A stretch of DNA of 41,471 nt from Muribaculaceae bacterium. GTDB lineage: Bacteria > Cyanobacteriota > Vampirovibrionia > Gastranaerophilales > Gastranaerophilaceae. The notes under the pieces are model-generated. The model searched no databases, was not told the origin of the DNA, and saw nothing but the letters and a program-made list of their open reading frames with translations. Positions 18,176 through 34,972 of this stretch are shown piece after piece. The stretch spans positions 1 to 41,471 of the forward strand of contig JAMPCZ010000004.1 in the NCBI GenBank assembly GCA_023665935.1, read 5' to 3'. The position numbers and the translations under genes were made by a program. The first letter of the stretch is position 1. Every line of letters begins with the position of its first letter.

Positions 18176-18619
18176 TTAAATCTTAACTTTTACAACAACC
18201 TTTTTTACTATCTCCGATTCAACAGGAGCTATTTGCGGCGCATGCGCCTCGTGCGGATAAATCAGTGCAAAATTTGAACTATTCAAAGTCAAATAGTCAT
18301 TTTCTCCAATGTTATTACTAAAAAACATAATATCTCTTGCGGGATTATAAGGTTCTTTGATTGACAATCCGTCTAAAGCCGAATAATAGATACGTTCTTT
18401 ACCCTTTAACAATATTTGGATATCAATATATTCTTTGTGAGCTTCAAACAGCCCCTCGTTTAAAGTTTTTGTTGAATACGATTCAATATTAGCATAACAA
18501 CCGTCAGGCAGCTCATAACGTCCGTCAGCCATCTCTAATGAGATGTTTTTGATAAAGTCTTTCGCAAAATCGGGAATCTGCGCATATAAATCCACATTAC
18601 TCAATTTATCTATAATCAT
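18176..18619 (-). CDS. YhcH/YjgK/YiaL family protein (EbgC-like)
   Basis: A 147-residue cupin-like protein. The family signature is clear: ...EAHKEYIDIQILLKGKERIYYS, near residues 60-80, and ALIYPHEAHAPQIA with metal-ligand His, then the terminal VKKVVVKVKI. Members include NanQ (sialic acid anomerase) and the small subunit of Ebg beta-galactosidase, so a sugar-anomer or sugar-processing role is likely; the exact substrate is not visible. AAAGG is upstream of ATG. The gene lies 62 bases after the giant prepilin, separated by a GC-rich hairpin (18643-18665). Confidence 0.9.
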   Translation of the reverse strand: MIIDKLSNVDLYAQIPDFAKDFIKNISLEMADGRYELPDGCYANIESYSTKTLNEGLFEAHKEYIDIQILLKGKERIYYSALDGLSIKEPYNPARDIMFFSNNIGENDYLTLNSSNFALIYPHEAHAPQIAPVESEIVKKVVVKVKI

Positions 18620-18642: not shown

Positions 18643-18665
18643 GGGACGGATATAAAATCCGTCCC
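18643..18665 (-). terminator. 9-bp perfect hairpin after the giant prepilin gene
   Basis: GGGACGGAT and ATCCGTCCC pair perfectly around a 5-nt loop, 17 bases past the stop of the 876-aa gene. On the - strand the stem is followed by TTTATATAG, a weak U-tract. It is probably an attenuating terminator between the prepilin gene and yhcH. Confidence 0.6.
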
Positions 18666-18681
18666 GTAATTACCTTTATTA

Positions 18682-21312
18682 CTAGAATGTACGAAGTTTA
18701 CGTCTTACCGAAATATAACATGCTTCAAAATCACATGGGTTATCCGACAAATTACTTCCGGTAACACTATCATTTCGCAAATACTCAGTACCTTTCAATT
18801 CAACTACGATATCCTGCTCATTATTCCTTTTGAACTTAACCTTTTGGTAATATTTTTCACCCAAGTTTAAACAATAAGGCGAATTCTTACTTATTTTCCG
18901 TACCGAACACAAAGCTCTCGCATAAGAAATATTCGGGAATACAACTTTCTTCGTTCTGCGTCCGGAAGAATCAACGTCATAATAGTAAACATCAGTCGGC
19001 AGCATATTTGCACTGTTACCGCCAAGATTTATATTAGACGACGTAGTATTAGACTTATTGCCATCCAGCGGATATCCGGGATAAACCATGCCGTTTGATG
19101 AAACATAGAACGGGAACACATCTTCCCACAACGTTCCGTTGCCTCGGCTGCCATTAATATCGACAAACACAGTGAATCCGCTGATAGCATAGACTCTCGG
19201 ATCTAAATAGTATGAATCTGAAGAAGATGCACCGGTACCAGCCGCTTTAGCTGCCGCAATATCCGATAAATCAGGAGCATTACAGCAGTTACGAGCATCC
19301 CCCATTGTTTTTCGGCTTTCATCTGAGATTTTATAACAACCGTTTTCTGCTCCGCAGAAATAAGCCTTTGGATCAGCTTCGGTACATGCTGCTTTTGTAT
19401 CTTTATTTAGATTTTTACAAATATTCCGTTCCGGAATGGCATTATCTGTCGTATAAGTTAACCCCGGAATTGATGCTACGCGGTCACTTAATATCCACAT
19501 ATATAAGCCGTTAGACAATATTAAGTTAGGTTTTAATCCTGAAAGTGTTTTTTGATTATATGCAAATGCTCCGGGCTGCGAGTCTATAGACATCAATCTT
19601 TTATTTGTAGAACTTGACCTGCCAAGTGCAGCTTCAAATACATTTTTATAATATTTAGCACCTGACAACTTCTCGACTGTGTAGTATTTAGTAGAATCAC
19701 AAAAGTTTCCGTGTCTCTTTATACTCCAAGTCTCTGCAACCAAATCGCAAAAACGCTTTGCGCTAATTATCGGAGGATTCAATACGCAAATATCATTACC
19801 GTCAACAGTTTTTTTAGAATAACCCTCAGTACAATTATCCGCTACACACTTGCCGCCCTTTTTAGAATATCCTGAAGCGCATACACAGGTAGAGCCATTG
19901 TAAAAAGCTCCAACTTCACAGCAAGTTTTAGTACTTTCATTGAAATCGCCTTCGCAGTATACATTACGGAATTCTTTTTTTGTAGTACCGACTTCCCAAG
20001 AATAACAACGTTTCTTTCCATTTTGTGTTCCGGTGGAGTTACAGGCATGCTTTGGATTATTTTCAGAATATACATAACCGGACGCAGGGACACACTCGAT
20101 TGTATTCGGTTTTCCGACGTTTCTCATATTATAATAACCGTTATTACCGTTTTGACAATCAGAATCACCAAATGTAGGAGGCTGAGCACTCACGGAGGAT
20201 GTTCCTGAACTTTGGGTATACGAGTATTTGGTCGTTGATTTTAGCTCGCAAAAACCTCGTTTATCATTAGAAACTTTACTTCCGTAATCAATAAATGAAT
20301 CATCCATATCCTTACCGGAATCGACAGCCGTTTTATTATCCTCACCATCATCGTCGTCGTCATCGCTATAGCCTTCTCTTGAACTTTCAGGAACCCAACT
20401 TGTAGAGTAGGTTACTGTAGTTCCCGAGTCAGAATCCGTATAGTTAGTTTTTAACATATTACCTAAACTTGTACATAGACTTTGACCGCTATTTGGCTCT
20501 GCATTATTATATCCGATTGCATTTAATAGTGTATTAAACGCCGCATCCGTAAGTGAGGGAGAATCAGTACCTGCTCCCTGAACATAAGCAGGTTTAAATG
20601 CTTCAATTTGAGGAAGCATCGCCATCAAAATATCATTTTCCGCAACCGGTCCCGGAACTTCTTGTTCCTCCCCTTTTTCATCAATAAAAGACCCCTTATT
20701 ACCAGCTTCTATAAAATCCTGATAACCGTAACAACCACCAAAATGATTACGATTATAATACAAAAAATCTGGGACCTGTTCTTTCGTACCGTCAGGGTTC
20801 TCTTTTTCGACTAAAATATTTTTCATTGGTACCGTGTGATCGCTGGTTCCACAAACCCGATACCCTAGCCAAAGTTCAGAGATAAACGAGTCTGTACCAT
20901 ATAAATCCTGGGTATATTCATCAATTTCCTCAGCCGCAAAAGCTTTTGGGAAAAATTTACGGATTAAGGCTTTTTCTGTAAAAGCTATCTTTGAAGATAA
21001 ATCTCTAAAAAACAACTTTGTTCTGAAAGCTAAAGCATCTTTCCAGGTATACTGGCGAAGCGTTGAACCGTCATAATAAAATGATGTGGTATCTTCATCA
21101 TCTGTTATCGGTTCCCCTATCGTAACAACTTGAGAAGCCATTTTTTCAACTGTTTTAAATGCCATATAGTAAGCGTATTCATCAGTCTTATCAAGCTGTC
21201 TATTAATAACCGGCAAAGTTATCATCGCTATTATTGCGATAATAAACAAAGCAATAAGAATTTCAGCCAATGTAAAAGCAGATTTTTTTATATAATCCTT
21301 AAATTTCATCAT
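18682..21312 (-). CDS. Giant 876-aa prepilin-like, cysteine-rich surface protein
   Basis: The N-terminus MMKFKDYIKKSAFTLAEILI followed by ALFIIAIIAMITLPV is a type III prepilin signal with A before F and the conserved Glu5, yet the mature part is over 850 residues where pilins have 120-250. Residues roughly 320-340 hold a run of six Asp. About 370-540 is very Cys-rich, with EGF-like spacing (CCEVGAFYNGSTCVCASGYSKKGGKC). The C-terminal third has VDINGSRGNGTLWEDVFPF, the motif shared with the other prepilins here, and a final Cys pair region. It is probably a minor pseudopilin tipped with an adhesin-like domain. GGAGGG abuts the first ATG, so the second (21309) may be used. It follows tktA by 10 bases. 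Confidence 0.85.
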   Translation of the reverse strand: MMKFKDYIKKSAFTLAEILIALFIIAIIAMITLPVINRQLDKTDEYAYYMAFKTVEKMASQVVTIGEPITDDEDTTSFYYDGSTLRQYTWKDALAFRTKLFFRDLSSKIAFTEKALIRKFFPKAFAAEEIDEYTQDLYGTDSFISELWLGYRVCGTSDHTVPMKNILVEKENPDGTKEQVPDFLYYNRNHFGGCYGYQDFIEAGNKGSFIDEKGEEQEVPGPVAENDILMAMLPQIEAFKPAYVQGAGTDSPSLTDAAFNTLLNAIGYNNAEPNSGQSLCTSLGNMLKTNYTDSDSGTTVTYSTSWVPESSREGYSDDDDDDGEDNKTAVDSGKDMDDSFIDYGSKVSNDKRGFCELKSTTKYSYTQSSGTSSVSAQPPTFGDSDCQNGNNGYYNMRNVGKPNTIECVPASGYVYSENNPKHACNSTGTQNGKKRCYSWEVGTTKKEFRNVYCEGDFNESTKTCCEVGAFYNGSTCVCASGYSKKGGKCVADNCTEGYSKKTVDGNDICVLNPPIISAKRFCDLVAETWSIKRHGNFCDSTKYYTVEKLSGAKYYKNVFEAALGRSSSTNKRLMSIDSQPGAFAYNQKTLSGLKPNLILSNGLYMWILSDRVASIPGLTYTTDNAIPERNICKNLNKDTKAACTEADPKAYFCGAENGCYKISDESRKTMGDARNCCNAPDLSDIAAAKAAGTGASSSDSYYLDPRVYAISGFTVFVDINGSRGNGTLWEDVFPFYVSSNGMVYPGYPLDGNKSNTTSSNINLGGNSANMLPTDVYYYDVDSSGRRTKKVVFPNISYARALCSVRKISKNSPYCLNLGEKYYQKVKFKRNNEQDIVVELKGTEYLRNDSVTGSNLSDNPCDFEACYISVRRKLRTF

Positions 21313-21322
21313 CCCTCCAAGG

Positions 21323-22147
21323 TTATTTTAATTCCTGCAAAGCACTTTCATAATCATCTTTTGAAGGAGCTTTACCATGCCAGCCGGCATTATTTTCCAT
21401 AAAGCTAACACCCTTACCCTTTATCGTGTTGGCAATAATGGCAACAGGTTTCCCCGCTTTTTTAGCAGATTCAATAGCCTCATATATCTGTACAATATCG
21501 TGGCCATCTATCTCTATCACCTGCCAGTTAAAAGCTTCTATTTTTGCATTCAAATTATCGAGAGGTTTAACACACTCTGTTGAACCGTCAATTTGCAAAC
21601 GGTTTCTATCAATAATTGCGACCAAATTATCTAAATTTCGATGAGGAGCATTCATCATTGCTTCCCAGATATTTCCTTCCTGCAATTCTCCGTCACCCAA
21701 GAGTACAAAGACATTCGCAGGATTTTTATCAAGCTTTAAAGACATAGCAATTCCGCATGCCATTGACAAACCTTGCCCCAATGAACCTGTAGCAATTTCA
21801 ACCCCCGGACACCACAGTGAAGGATGCCCCTGCAGCCTTGTACCGAGTTTTCTGAATGTTTTTAACTCGGATTTATCAATAAAACCCTCCTGCGCCAGCA
21901 CAGAATAATAAATCGGTGAAACATGACCTTTTGACAAAACAAAACGATCACGAATATTGTATTCAGGCGAATATTTGCCTTTCGGAGCATGCTTCATGCA
22001 TTTATGAAACAACACAGTCATAATATCACACGATGAAAGTGAACCTCCAATGTGCCCTGACTCGGCTTCATAAACCATATCAAGTATATGACGCCTGTTT
22101 TCTAAACATAAATCCTTTAACTCATTTATTTCTATATCTGTTAGCAT
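21323..22147 (-). CDS. Transketolase, N-terminal subunit
   Basis: The thiamine-diphosphate-binding half of a split transketolase (or related ketose-transferring enzyme). The 274 residues include SGHIGGSLSSCDIMTVLFH, FVLSKGHVSPIYYSVLAQEG, GSLGQGLSMACGIA and the TPP/Mg motif GDGELQEGNIWEAMMNA with N following in DRNRLQIDG. The C-terminal pyrimidine-binding subunit that must complete the enzyme is not adjacent; the next gene is the giant prepilin. It directly follows the WecG-like gene (TAAATG junction), which suggests a shared transcript. It could supply a sugar precursor for a surface glycan, but that is only contextual. Confidence 0.93.
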   Translation of the reverse strand: MLTDIEINELKDLCLENRRHILDMVYEAESGHIGGSLSSCDIMTVLFHKCMKHAPKGKYSPEYNIRDRFVLSKGHVSPIYYSVLAQEGFIDKSELKTFRKLGTRLQGHPSLWCPGVEIATGSLGQGLSMACGIAMSLKLDKNPANVFVLLGDGELQEGNIWEAMMNAPHRNLDNLVAIIDRNRLQIDGSTECVKPLDNLNAKIEAFNWQVIEIDGHDIVQIYEAIESAKKAGKPVAIIANTIKGKGVSFMENNAGWHGKAPSKDDYESALQELK

Positions 22148-22864
22148 TTAGTTTTTTATCAACCTTTCTTTTAAAACTCTCAAAATAAATAACGGTAACG
22201 TCGGAAAAATCCTCTTAAACCGCTTTGGTTCTTTAATAGTCCTGTAAAGCCACTCCAAACCAAACTTCTGCCAAATAACAGGAGCACGCTCAACAACACC
22301 AGCCCAAACATCAAAACTACCGCCCAGCCCAATTAACAAAGCTTTTGGCAGCCTTTGTTTTAATTTGGCATTAAACATTTCCTGTTTTGGAGAACCTAGT
22401 GCAACCAAAACCAAATCCGGAGAAAGTGCCGCAAGTTCATTTATTATTTGCTCATCATCAGAAAAATATCCGTCATGCGCATAAATAATATTTAAGTTTT
22501 CAATCTCATTTTTAAGATTTTTAGCCGCAAGCTCAACAACTTCAGGCTTTGCACCAACCAGTGCAACTTTTTTATTTTCTTTAGAAAACTTAATAATTAA
22601 AGCCTTGCCAAGCTCAACGCCGGGAATTCTTTTCACGTTATGTCCAAGAATTTTCAACCCTATTTGAACCCCGATACCATCAGGGACAACTAATTCGGCT
22701 TGCGAAATAACATCCGAAAACTCAGGTAGTTTTGCTGCAGTTTCAATCATTTCGGGATTGATTGTTACAATCTGACCGCCATGCTCATACGCATAGTCGA
22801 CAGCCTCATCAAAGCTGAACGTATCCACTCCATATCCCAAAATTTTAACCGAATCTCTGTCCAT
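22148..22864 (-). CDS. WecG/TagA/CpsF family glycosyltransferase
   Basis: A 238-residue GT26-family enzyme that transfers N-acetylmannosamine-type sugars to lipid-linked GlcNAc. Motifs in order: VTINPEMIETA, LVVPDGIGVQIGLKI with the conserved Asp, RIPGVELGKALI, KVALVGAKPEVVELA, LVLVALGSPKQEMF and LIGLGGSFDVWAGVVERAP, followed by GLEWLYRTIKEPKRFKR. It is a peripheral cytoplasmic-face enzyme of teichoic acid, enterobacterial common antigen or capsule assembly. The promoter gives a leaderless start: TATAAT is 6 nt before ATG. It heads the transcript with tktA and the giant prepilin. Confidence 0.95.
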   Translation of the reverse strand: MDRDSVKILGYGVDTFSFDEAVDYAYEHGGQIVTINPEMIETAAKLPEFSDVISQAELVVPDGIGVQIGLKILGHNVKRIPGVELGKALIIKFSKENKKVALVGAKPEVVELAAKNLKNEIENLNIIYAHDGYFSDDEQIINELAALSPDLVLVALGSPKQEMFNAKLKQRLPKALLIGLGGSFDVWAGVVERAPVIWQKFGLEWLYRTIKEPKRFKRIFPTLPLFILRVLKERLIKN

Positions 22865-22870
22865 ATCAAT

Positions 22871-22879
22871 ATTATATCA
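22871..22879 (-). promoter_or_regulatory. Extended -10 promoter of the WecG-like gene, leaderless geometry
   Basis: TG-A-TATAAT on the - strand, with the -10 box at 22876-22871 and exactly 6 nt to ATG (22864). There is no Shine-Dalgarno. It is back to back with the promoter of the 22910 gene within a 45-bp intergenic region. Confidence 0.7.
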
Positions 22880-22894
22880 TATTATACACAATTA

Positions 22895-22903
22895 TGCTAT
22901 AAT
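22895..22903 (+). promoter_or_regulatory. Extended -10 promoter of the 22910 gene, leaderless geometry
   Basis: TG-C-TATAAT, with the -10 box at 22898-22903 and exactly 6 nt to ATG (22910). There is no Shine-Dalgarno. This position favours 22910 as the start over an in-frame ATG at 22781, which would lie inside the opposite gene and upstream of the promoter. Confidence 0.7.
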
Positions 22904-22909
22904 CTTATT

Positions 22910-23728
22910 ATGAAAATATTTAAAAGTTTATTAACATTTTTGGTTATAATTTTAACTTTTAGCAGAGTTGAAGCTGTGCAGTTTAATGTAGTTGTTCTAC
23001 CTACTGATTTATTCAAAGTTTGCGACAATTATTTTTGTTTTCCGGAAGCTTCTGAAATTGCAAGCGAATATGTTATACAAAACCTGAATTCTTATAAAAA
23101 TATTTCAGCATACACACTGGCTGATGTTCGAGCTAAAATGTATGCAGACAAAGAACTTGCAGAGCAAACTGCAGTAATGCTTGATAAGTTTGCTAAAATA
23201 GACAGAATCGATTTTGCCCCTCTAAAAAAAATCTCAGATGAATTCGGGGTAAAATCAATAATCTTAATATCTTCCTGGATATCCAACGAAGAAACTTTGA
23301 CAAAAAGAAATCTGTGGGAAATATTGCAAATATCCAGCGCGTTTCAAATTTCTCACCCGTTCACTCTTAACACAAACGCCGTACTTACCGATACAGTAAA
23401 CAATACGGTCATGTGGAGCGGAAGATATACTGTAAAAGTCACTGATTCCAATGATATGTTCAAGGCTTCAAACCAAGCCCAAGCAGCTTCGCAGCTTGAA
23501 AAAATTAAACAATATTATAAAAATAACATTGCCCAAACAATCAGTCAAAATATCAGATTAAGATTTTTTCCAAAAACAGTCCGAACATTTACTACAGGCA
23601 AGCAGACAACCGAACAAAAACAATTCATGCCAAACGCACTGGAACATCTCTCAAAACCAAAATTAGAGTCTGAAATTAATGAGCTTTATAAAGAAACCAC
23701 CGCAGATGACTTAATTTTTGATTTTTAG
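22910..23728 (+). CDS. Exported protein of unknown function
   Basis: Begins MKIFKSLLTFLVIILTFSRVEA, a Sec signal peptide with likely cleavage after VEA, then QFNVVVLPTDLFKVCDNYFCF. The mature part of about 250 residues has two nearby Cys (CDNYFC), a segment ASEYVIQNLNSYKNISAYTLADVRAKM, and SIILISSWISNE...TLNTNAVLTDTVNNTVMWSGRYTVKV. The pattern of a query protein with an early helix, 'NVVVLPTD' strand and a later 'D..t..vlWS..y.v' strand reminds me of CsgG/TolB-N-like periplasmic domains, but this is only a resemblance. The promoter places the start at 22910. Family unknown. Confidence 0.8.
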   Translation: MKIFKSLLTFLVIILTFSRVEAVQFNVVVLPTDLFKVCDNYFCFPEASEIASEYVIQNLNSYKNISAYTLADVRAKMYADKELAEQTAVMLDKFAKIDRIDFAPLKKISDEFGVKSIILISSWISNEETLTKRNLWEILQISSAFQISHPFTLNTNAVLTDTVNNTVMWSGRYTVKVTDSNDMFKASNQAQAASQLEKIKQYYKNNIAQTISQNIRLRFFPKTVRTFTTGKQTTEQKQFMPNALEHLSKPKLESEINELYKETTADDLIFDF

Positions 23729-34091: not shown

Positions 34092-34106
34092 TTTTTATTT
34101 ATTTTT
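34085..34106 (+). terminator. SRP RNA terminator U-tract overlapping prepilin stop
   Basis: The closing stem of the SRP RNA ends at 34091 and TTTTTATTTATTTTT follows (34092-34106). This tract covers the stop codon and last codons of the convergent prepilin gene, so the two genes share their 3' ends. Confidence 0.65.
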
Positions 34107-34751
34107 AAGGTAATTCATATCGCCAAATGTTAGTACATACCATGCACAGCCAAAACCTGTTCCTGTTTTTGGAATGCATGTTCTTTCATAATCATCCAAA
34201 CCCGGAGCTCCATTTGGACGTAAGCCGATATCTTCAAAATACAACATTTCAAACAAATCTGTCCCCCATTGATTTGGACCCGCCAACCCGTTAACATCTA
34301 CAAAAAAATCGATATAATACCTGCTGGCATTACCTCTCCACCAAATAAATGTTCCGTTTAATAATTTTACTTTATAATGAGCAGAATTATTAGTATAACT
34401 AGCCCATAAACTTCCATTACGTAACTTATATGTAGCAGTTTTACAAACCTTATTAACATTTTTTGTTCCGCAATCATCAGCTAATTTCATAAAAGGTTTG
34501 ATATTATTAGCAATTATATTTGCAGATTGCTCATCTGCTCCGGTTATACCCCAACCGGAAACTCCGCCAAATTCATCTTCAGCAGCACGAATAACTTGGG
34601 ACAGGATAGATTGTATAGTCTTTAATTGAGTGTACACACGCTTATCTCTATTATTTTGAATAAGATTAGGAATGGTCATCGCCGCAACTACTCCGATTAT
34701 GCCCAGGGTGATTAAAGTTTCTGCTAAGGTAAAGGCATGTCGAACCCTCAC
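34095..34751 (-). CDS. Prepilin-like protein with a repeat-derived 5' end
   Basis: A 218-residue prepilin when started at GTG (34751): MRVRHAFTLAETLITLGIIG, with a short basic leader, A before F, Glu5, then a hydrophobic helix. The globular part contains VDVNGLAGPNQWGTDLFEM and ends TGFGCAWYVLTFGDMNYLKNK, closely matching the broken prepilin at 5466-6149. The frame also opens further upstream (ATG at 34832 or 34787), but that part reads through palindromic repeats A and D, so it would give an abnormal leader. The GTG itself lies in repeat A. No good Shine-Dalgarno can be assigned. The 3' end overlaps the SRP RNA terminator. Confidence 0.85.
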   Translation of the reverse strand: MRVRHAFTLAETLITLGIIGVVAAMTIPNLIQNNRDKRVYTQLKTIQSILSQVIRAAEDEFGGVSGWGITGADEQSANIIANNIKPFMKLADDCGTKNVNKVCKTATYKLRNGSLWASYTNNSAHYKVKLLNGTFIWWRGNASRYYIDFFVDVNGLAGPNQWGTDLFEMLYFEDIGLRPNGAPGLDDYERTCIPKTGTGFGCAWYVLTFGDMNYLKNK

Positions 34752-34841: not shown

Positions 34842-34972
34842 GACACGGGCTATTCTGTCCCTCTCAAGGGGGCAGATAAATGTAAATCCCGCAAAGCTAG
34901 GAAAGACAAGCCTTAAAAGGTTACCCCCCCCCGATTTTCTTGATATTGTTGAGTTCTAGCATACTTTCATCC

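Follow-up and report, generated by a model that had tools for sequence, protein, structure and literature searches.

Genes and features of the locus

The window, i.e. the whole stretch of 41,471 nucleotides that was analysed, belongs to an assembly of 2.03 Mb in 163 contigs with 88.6% completeness. It carries an intact open reading frame with no internal stop that encodes a giant prepilin of 876 residues (Table 1), as had been claimed in a preliminary description of this DNA, and whose closest match among named records is a Candidatus Melainabacteria MAG. The second methionine (M2, 21309) is more likely to be the start than M1, since M2 is invariant among orthologues and the Shine-Dalgarno sequence GGAGGG abuts the first ATG.

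Table 1. Features of the giant prepilin and of its neighbourhood; coordinates are those of the window, and identities are means relative to the window protein.
Feature	Position	Strand	Basis
YhcH/YjgK/YiaL (DUF386) sugar anomerase-like protein	18176..18619	-	PF04074
Terminator-like 9-bp hairpin with T-rich tail, between giant prepilin and yhcH	18643..18665	-	Sequence
Giant prepilin, 876 aa	18682..21312	-	ORF and TIGR02532 match; single-copy orthologues genus-wide
Leader peptide, residues 1-12, before predicted prepilin-peptidase site A12/F13	21277..21312	-	Invariant F13/E17; TIGR02532 above cutoff
Predicted pilin alpha-1 helix, residues 13-65	21118..21276	-	55% identity over 1-67; helix 3-65 in low-confidence model
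Linker, variable, partly acidic, residues 68-379	20176..21111	-	19-22% identity; many indels
PKAFA, conserved P-x-A-x-A motif at end of stalk, residues 122-126	20935..20949	-	25/26 orthologues
Hexa-Asp run, residues 317-322, length not conserved	20347..20364	-	Orthologue alignment
Cys-rich EGF-like region, residues 386-512	19777..20157	-	31% identity; Cys columns present in the majority or all of the 26 orthologues
EGF_2 signature PS01186 match, residues 476-489, CVCASGYSKKGGKC	19846..19887	-	15/26 orthologues
Conserved C-terminal core, residues 513-876, with Cys-rich insert at about 620-705	18685..19776	-	46% identity; hhalign E 6.8e-34
DING module VDINGxKGxGTLWxDVFPFYI...YPGYPLD, residues 705-780, common to other prepilins of the family	18973..19200	-	63% identity; profile and alignment
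Transketolase N-terminal half (tktN)	21323..22147	-	PF00456, E 9e-56
WecG/TagA/CpsF-family glycosyltransferase (wecG)	22148..22864	-	PF03808, TIGR00696

The genes wecG, tktN and the giant prepilin lie on the same strand with gaps of 0 and 10 nt. The preliminary description placed the prepilin in one transcript with a WecG-like transferase and half a transketolase; the neighbours and their close spacing stand, while the transcript itself is a prediction. It may end after the giant prepilin and before yhcH, because a hairpin with a T-rich tail (18665-18643) lies between the two. The transketolase half of the window is matched by PF00456 alone. Outgroup families have no prepilin here and show the order tktN, tktC, ftsE, ftsX (L187, L188, L184), whereas in the genus of the window a prepilin and/or yhcH stands after tktN instead of these three genes. 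As the other transketolase half follows tktN in the outgroups, the half transketolase is an ordinary enzyme encoded in two halves, and wecG-tktN as a pair seems to predate the arrival of the prepilin. The link of the prepilin to wecG/tkt is real and old, and it may be positional rather than functional, since wecG-tktN is kept without any prepilin in outgroups. A divergent gene at 22781-23728 (+) has a listed start that overlaps wecG, so that its first codons are likely unused; its product (MKIFKSLLTF...) begins with a signal-peptide-like sequence and has no accepted family match.

Domain organization of the giant prepilin

The signal KKSA|FTLAE scores 18.7 bits against TIGR02532 (cutoff 16.3), which identifies a class III signal peptide, and F13 and E17 are invariant in 26 orthologues. 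The Pfam N_methyl model falls just under its cutoff for the window protein (19.7 vs 21.2) and matches 20 of the 26 orthologues at E-values up to 1, the best being 2e-7. The prepilin signal proposed earlier is thereby confirmed, and so is the density of cysteines: the protein holds 28, against a median of 6 in the ordinary prepilins of the same genome, which are 216-258 aa long. From residue 386 onward most of the cysteines are nearly invariant among orthologues, while the linker drifts. AlphaFold2 models built from two sequences, the window protein and one relative, are of low confidence, with a pLDDT of 31 for the full length and 30 for the C-terminal part, and carry no information on the fold of residues 300-600.

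The hexa-Asp run that had been pointed out occurs at D317-D322, yet exactly six Asp residues recur in one close relative only; at this position some of the other orthologues have a D/E/G-rich stretch and the remainder none. As it varies in both length and presence, the run was rejected as a functional element. The DxNG motif (D718-G721) is indeed shared, as previously stated, occurring in 21 of the 24 parsed prepilins of the genome (19/21 without duplicates) compared with 3.3 expected in shuffled sequences.

The cysteines of residues 386-512 are C386, C407 and C424, then C453, C464, C465, C476, C478 and C489, and finally C494 and C509. The PROSITE signature PS01186, CxCxxG[FYW]x(4,8)C, is found in 15 of 26 orthologues, including the window protein, vs 0.07 expected in shuffles. 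No Pfam model of the EGF clan reaches its gathering score, EGF_MSP1_1 giving 16.1 vs 27 bits in the window protein; cEGF matches weakly in 6/26 orthologues (best E 2.2e-4), under the Pfam cutoff. The region is thus best labelled EGF-like by cysteine spacing and is not filed as an EGF domain; the Cys-rich EGF-like middle of the preliminary description holds as a spacing pattern and not as an accepted Pfam family. More generally, searches of Pfam, NCBIfam and PHROGs with the giant orthologues gave no above-cutoff match outside the N-terminus, and no functional domain was recognised in the insert by Pfam or NCBIfam. Searched by sequence against the PDB, the giant has no match; its profile matches pilin N-termini only, and the C-terminal profile none. 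No relative was found among the viral contigs searched.

Origin of the core and of the inserts

A profile of the C-terminal 360 residues matches prepilins in many other genera, and the core match lies within 2.5 kb of tktN in 22 of the 32 other-genus genomes that have one. In hhalign comparisons, whose E-values derive from small profiles built in this analysis, the giant core aligns end to end with the tkt-linked prepilins of other genera (probability 99.9, E 6.8e-34) and with the ordinary prepilins of its own genome over 30 columns around DxNG only. Elsewhere in the same bacterial family, the tktN locus of other genera holds short prepilins of 265-350 aa (L154, L163, L164, L172, L174) that share the homologous core and Cys pairs of the giant; unlike it, they have 6-10 cysteines and no EGF-like insert. 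Across other genera, the occupant of this locus is either an insert-free prepilin of 265-305 aa with 6-8 cysteines or an expanded one with different Cys-rich inserts and up to 52 cysteines. One of them (L166:1622-3727, +; 701 aa, 52 Cys) contains about a dozen CW[DN]GS...CP repeats, which have no Pfam match.

Because its core aligns end to end with the short prepilins of the same locus, the giant can be described as the local short pilin plus inserts, namely the linker, the EGF-like region and a Cys-rich loop within the core. The direction would be insertion and not deletion, and the inserts, differing by lineage, point to module swapping. With insert-free homologues at the same locus and inserts that differ between lineages, the protein combines a pilin module with a separately evolving one, as a modular pilin does.

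Distribution, probable losses and selection

The giant prepilin was matched in 31 of the 59 genomes searched, all presence and absence counts being those of draft genomes. Single-copy orthologues of 630-899 aa occur in 30 of the 36 genomes of the genus, the source genome included, and the 31st match is N-terminal-only, in another genus. In every carrier whose contig shows the region, the gene stands between tktN and yhcH in the block wecG-tktN-prepilin-yhcH. In the six remaining genomes of the genus, yhcH lies within a few bases of tktN; these absences are therefore real, and an assembly gap was rejected as their cause. The six non-carriers form two groups nested among carriers in a wecG plus tktN tree, and this topology, read without a formal test, fits presence at the base of the genus followed by two losses.

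Over eight pairs, dN/dS (NG86) ranges from 0.06 to 0.31 for the whole gene and is lowest in the core; several dS values are near saturation, so the weight rests on the low ratios of close pairs. The gene is real, intact and under purifying selection. The presence of the gene beside wecG/tkt in other genomes, a check proposed earlier, was verified across the genus, and the view that it might be strain-specific or decaying was rejected on both its distribution and its low dN/dS.

A repertoire of prepilins linked to poly-G tracts

The source genome has 93 N_methyl matches, and the number varies widely within the genus, from 6-13 in some species to at least 115 in others; the six species that lack the giant belong to the low end of this range (6-13). 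Many prepilins are preceded by a starter made of a Shine-Dalgarno sequence, an ATG and about ten codons (e.g. MLKFNNSAKF or MLELNNIKKI), then by a G8-G12 tract and FTLAE; this was seen at L217, L238, L246, L247, L251, L253-L255 and L281-L300, as well as at a locus of the window. That locus holds the sole G8 run of the window (34924-34932, -), upstream of a prepilin at 34095-34742 (-); the tract has 9 G, and a length of 8 or 11 would put the ATG in frame. The giant prepilin has no poly-G tract.

In one related genome (G007), each of the 20 tracts fetched is followed by a prepilin at a distance of 26-49 nt, and in the assembled sequence none of the 20 starter ATGs shares the frame of its prepilin. 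In the source genome, a prepilin-like motif lies within 900 nt of 13 of the 37 tracts examined, in an open frame for 11 of these 13, among them L226, which matches the motif but is unlikely to be a prepilin; 16 further tracts of the 37 run into a contig end. The tracts look like a device for slipped-strand phase variation of the pilin repertoire, and it is equally possible that a fixed out-of-frame state would be overcome by transcriptional slippage. Many tracts are found less than about 100 bp away from a contig end (e.g. C18, C25, C42, C73, C129, C135, C139) and many prepilin 5' ends start contigs; the assembly was probably broken by repeat DNA common to tract and prepilin. At L238, L251 and L227, the frame stays open for 424, 601 and 748 nt between the poly-G and FTLAE, through DNA resembling intergenic repeats, and would give prepilin leaders of 140-250 residues.

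Pilus machinery and plausible oxidative folding

Type IV pilus genes were reported earlier in Gastranaerophilales (PMC5877343). In the source genome, PilB, PilC/GspF and PilQ are encoded in one cluster; PilB and PilQ are the best matches though below the NCBIfam cutoffs, and PilC best matches GspF. Together with two PilT-family retraction ATPases (506 and 424 bits vs a cutoff of 319) and a PilD-like protein matching A24_N_bact, they make up the components of a type IVa pilus system. A single secretin and a single PilB-type ATPase were identified in the assembly, which yielded no further secretin. VKOR is above cutoff in 19 of the 21 genomes searched, and the VKOR frame of the source genome, although cut by a contig end, retains its DsbA-like domain, which makes oxidative folding with periplasmic disulfides plausible.

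Proposed function and alternatives

With a single type IV pilus machine in the genome and no other secretin found, the best reading, which we hold to be the probable one, is that the giant is a minor type IV pilin of the modular kind, likely to be displayed at the tip and to act as an adhesin. The class III signal and the alpha-1 helix (1-65) would be processed by the prepilin peptidase, and the protein would then be assembled into a type IVa pilus by PilB, PilC and PilQ. Its core (513-876), which profile homology and synteny trace to a 265-300-aa pilin of the same locus, would form the globular part of the pilin, and the predicted disulfide-rich modules are inserted between alpha-1 and this core and in a loop of the core. 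Modules of such bulk are easier to place at the pilus tip than in the shaft. There, the insert would most likely bind a ligand such as mucin or a glycan or protein of a host or bacterial surface, and the two PilT ATPases could pull on it. Bulky pilin modules are known to act as adhesins in the case of Streptococcus PilB (PMC8179133), and the bulky module of ComZ is a proposed DNA receptor at the tip (PMC6561018). Of the two functions offered by the preliminary description, a pilus-tip adhesin or a secretion-system component, the first is thus the better supported, still as a prediction, and the second is not favoured given one secretin, one PilB-type ATPase and two PilT.

Several points count against this reading. 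The operon partners are sugar-metabolism genes and not pilus genes, and the gene appears dispensable, having probably been lost twice. No ligand-binding domain of known function was recognised in the giant. Finally, the ectodomain could be cut from the stalk at the P-x-A-x-A motif.

Such a cut would define a two-step processed exoprotein, whose pilin part stays in the membrane or the pilus while a cleavage resembling that of SPase I releases or re-attaches the Cys-rich part of about 750 residues. SPase I sites have a small residue at -3, A at -1 and P at -5. The spacing of the motif fits this pattern, and its conservation within an otherwise variable stretch compares with 6.2 of 26 orthologues expected, against a chance-level 2/24 in ordinary prepilins. 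However, no clear hydrophobic segment stands right before it, and the core to be released is the homologue of the globular part of short pilins, which mostly lack the motif; we therefore judge this alternative unlikely. Outside the genus, a general tie of P-x-A-x-A to inserts was rejected, being weak (6/9 vs 2.5 expected).

It is slightly less likely still that the giant is a glycan-related surface protein tied to the wecG/tkt/yhcH sugar operon, binding or presenting a polymer made by WecG. Throughout the genus the four genes form a fixed block, and related prepilins of other genera are also found beside wecG or tktN; yet the sugar pair seems to predate the prepilin, as judged from the outgroup order of tktN, tktC and ftsEX, and the losses of the prepilin leave the sugar genes intact.

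A tip subunit resembling GspK, capping a pseudopilus with which the pilus machine would push exoproteins, is improbable. Large inserts in a pilin fold are the GspK design (PMC8179133), and PilC/GspF-type and secretin genes do exist in the genome, but neither Pfam nor NCBIfam gives a GspK family match, the assembly has a single secretin, and the two PilT-family ATPases of the genome have no counterpart in T2SS. A DNA-uptake receptor like ComZ, the best-known pilin with a domain inserted in its body and a DNA binder (PMC6561018), is the least probable, as the insert of the giant is Cys-rich with an acidic linker, by which DNA binding is unlikely, and not a beta-solenoid repeat.

Within the preferred reading of a tip-exposed modular pilin, a speculative extension, on the doubtful side, would make the giant an invariable receptor, readable at all times, at the tip of a pilus that draws its remaining subunits from the poly-G-gated repertoire of up to about 100 prepilins; swapped EGF-like modules would tune binding at the tip, and the remainder of the fibre would differ through phase variation.

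Comparison with known modular pilins

Although large modular pilins are expected to be widespread, few have been traced at a single fixed locus from versions lacking an insert to lineage-specific giants. The tktN locus offers such a series across genera, and the conserved cysteines make folding and disulfide pairing testable. The protein is also a candidate host- or mucus-binding molecule for Melainabacteria, which are mostly known from metagenomes alone. In a literature search that covered few subscription journals, no description of a prepilin with EGF-like modules, nor of these proteins, was found.

The giant is a known modular-pilin design in a form not described before. Like PilB and PilC of Streptococcus sanguinis (PMC8179133), it combines a prepilin signal with a large module presumed to bind a ligand at the tip. 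In these two pilins, the module is a recognised domain (vWA or lectin) placed C-terminally, whereas the giant has its Cys-rich EGF-like inserts within the core and also ahead of it, after alpha-1. ComZ of Thermus thermophilus (PMC6561018) likewise has a very large insertion inside the pilin body and a proposed tip position, but its insertion is a DNA-binding beta-solenoid near the end of the sheet, and no sequence similarity was seen between the two proteins. GspK, the minor pseudopilin of the T2SS, also sits at the filament tip and has a domain inserted into its pilin fold; this domain is alpha-helical, whereas the giant has no GspK family match and its host machine is T4aP-like with PilT. 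In size, the giant is similar to a modular pilin of 860 residues from Candidatus Falkowbacteria, which has been described as the "most extreme case" (PMC8179133) and is built of twelve repeat copies in contrast to the Cys-rich modules found here.
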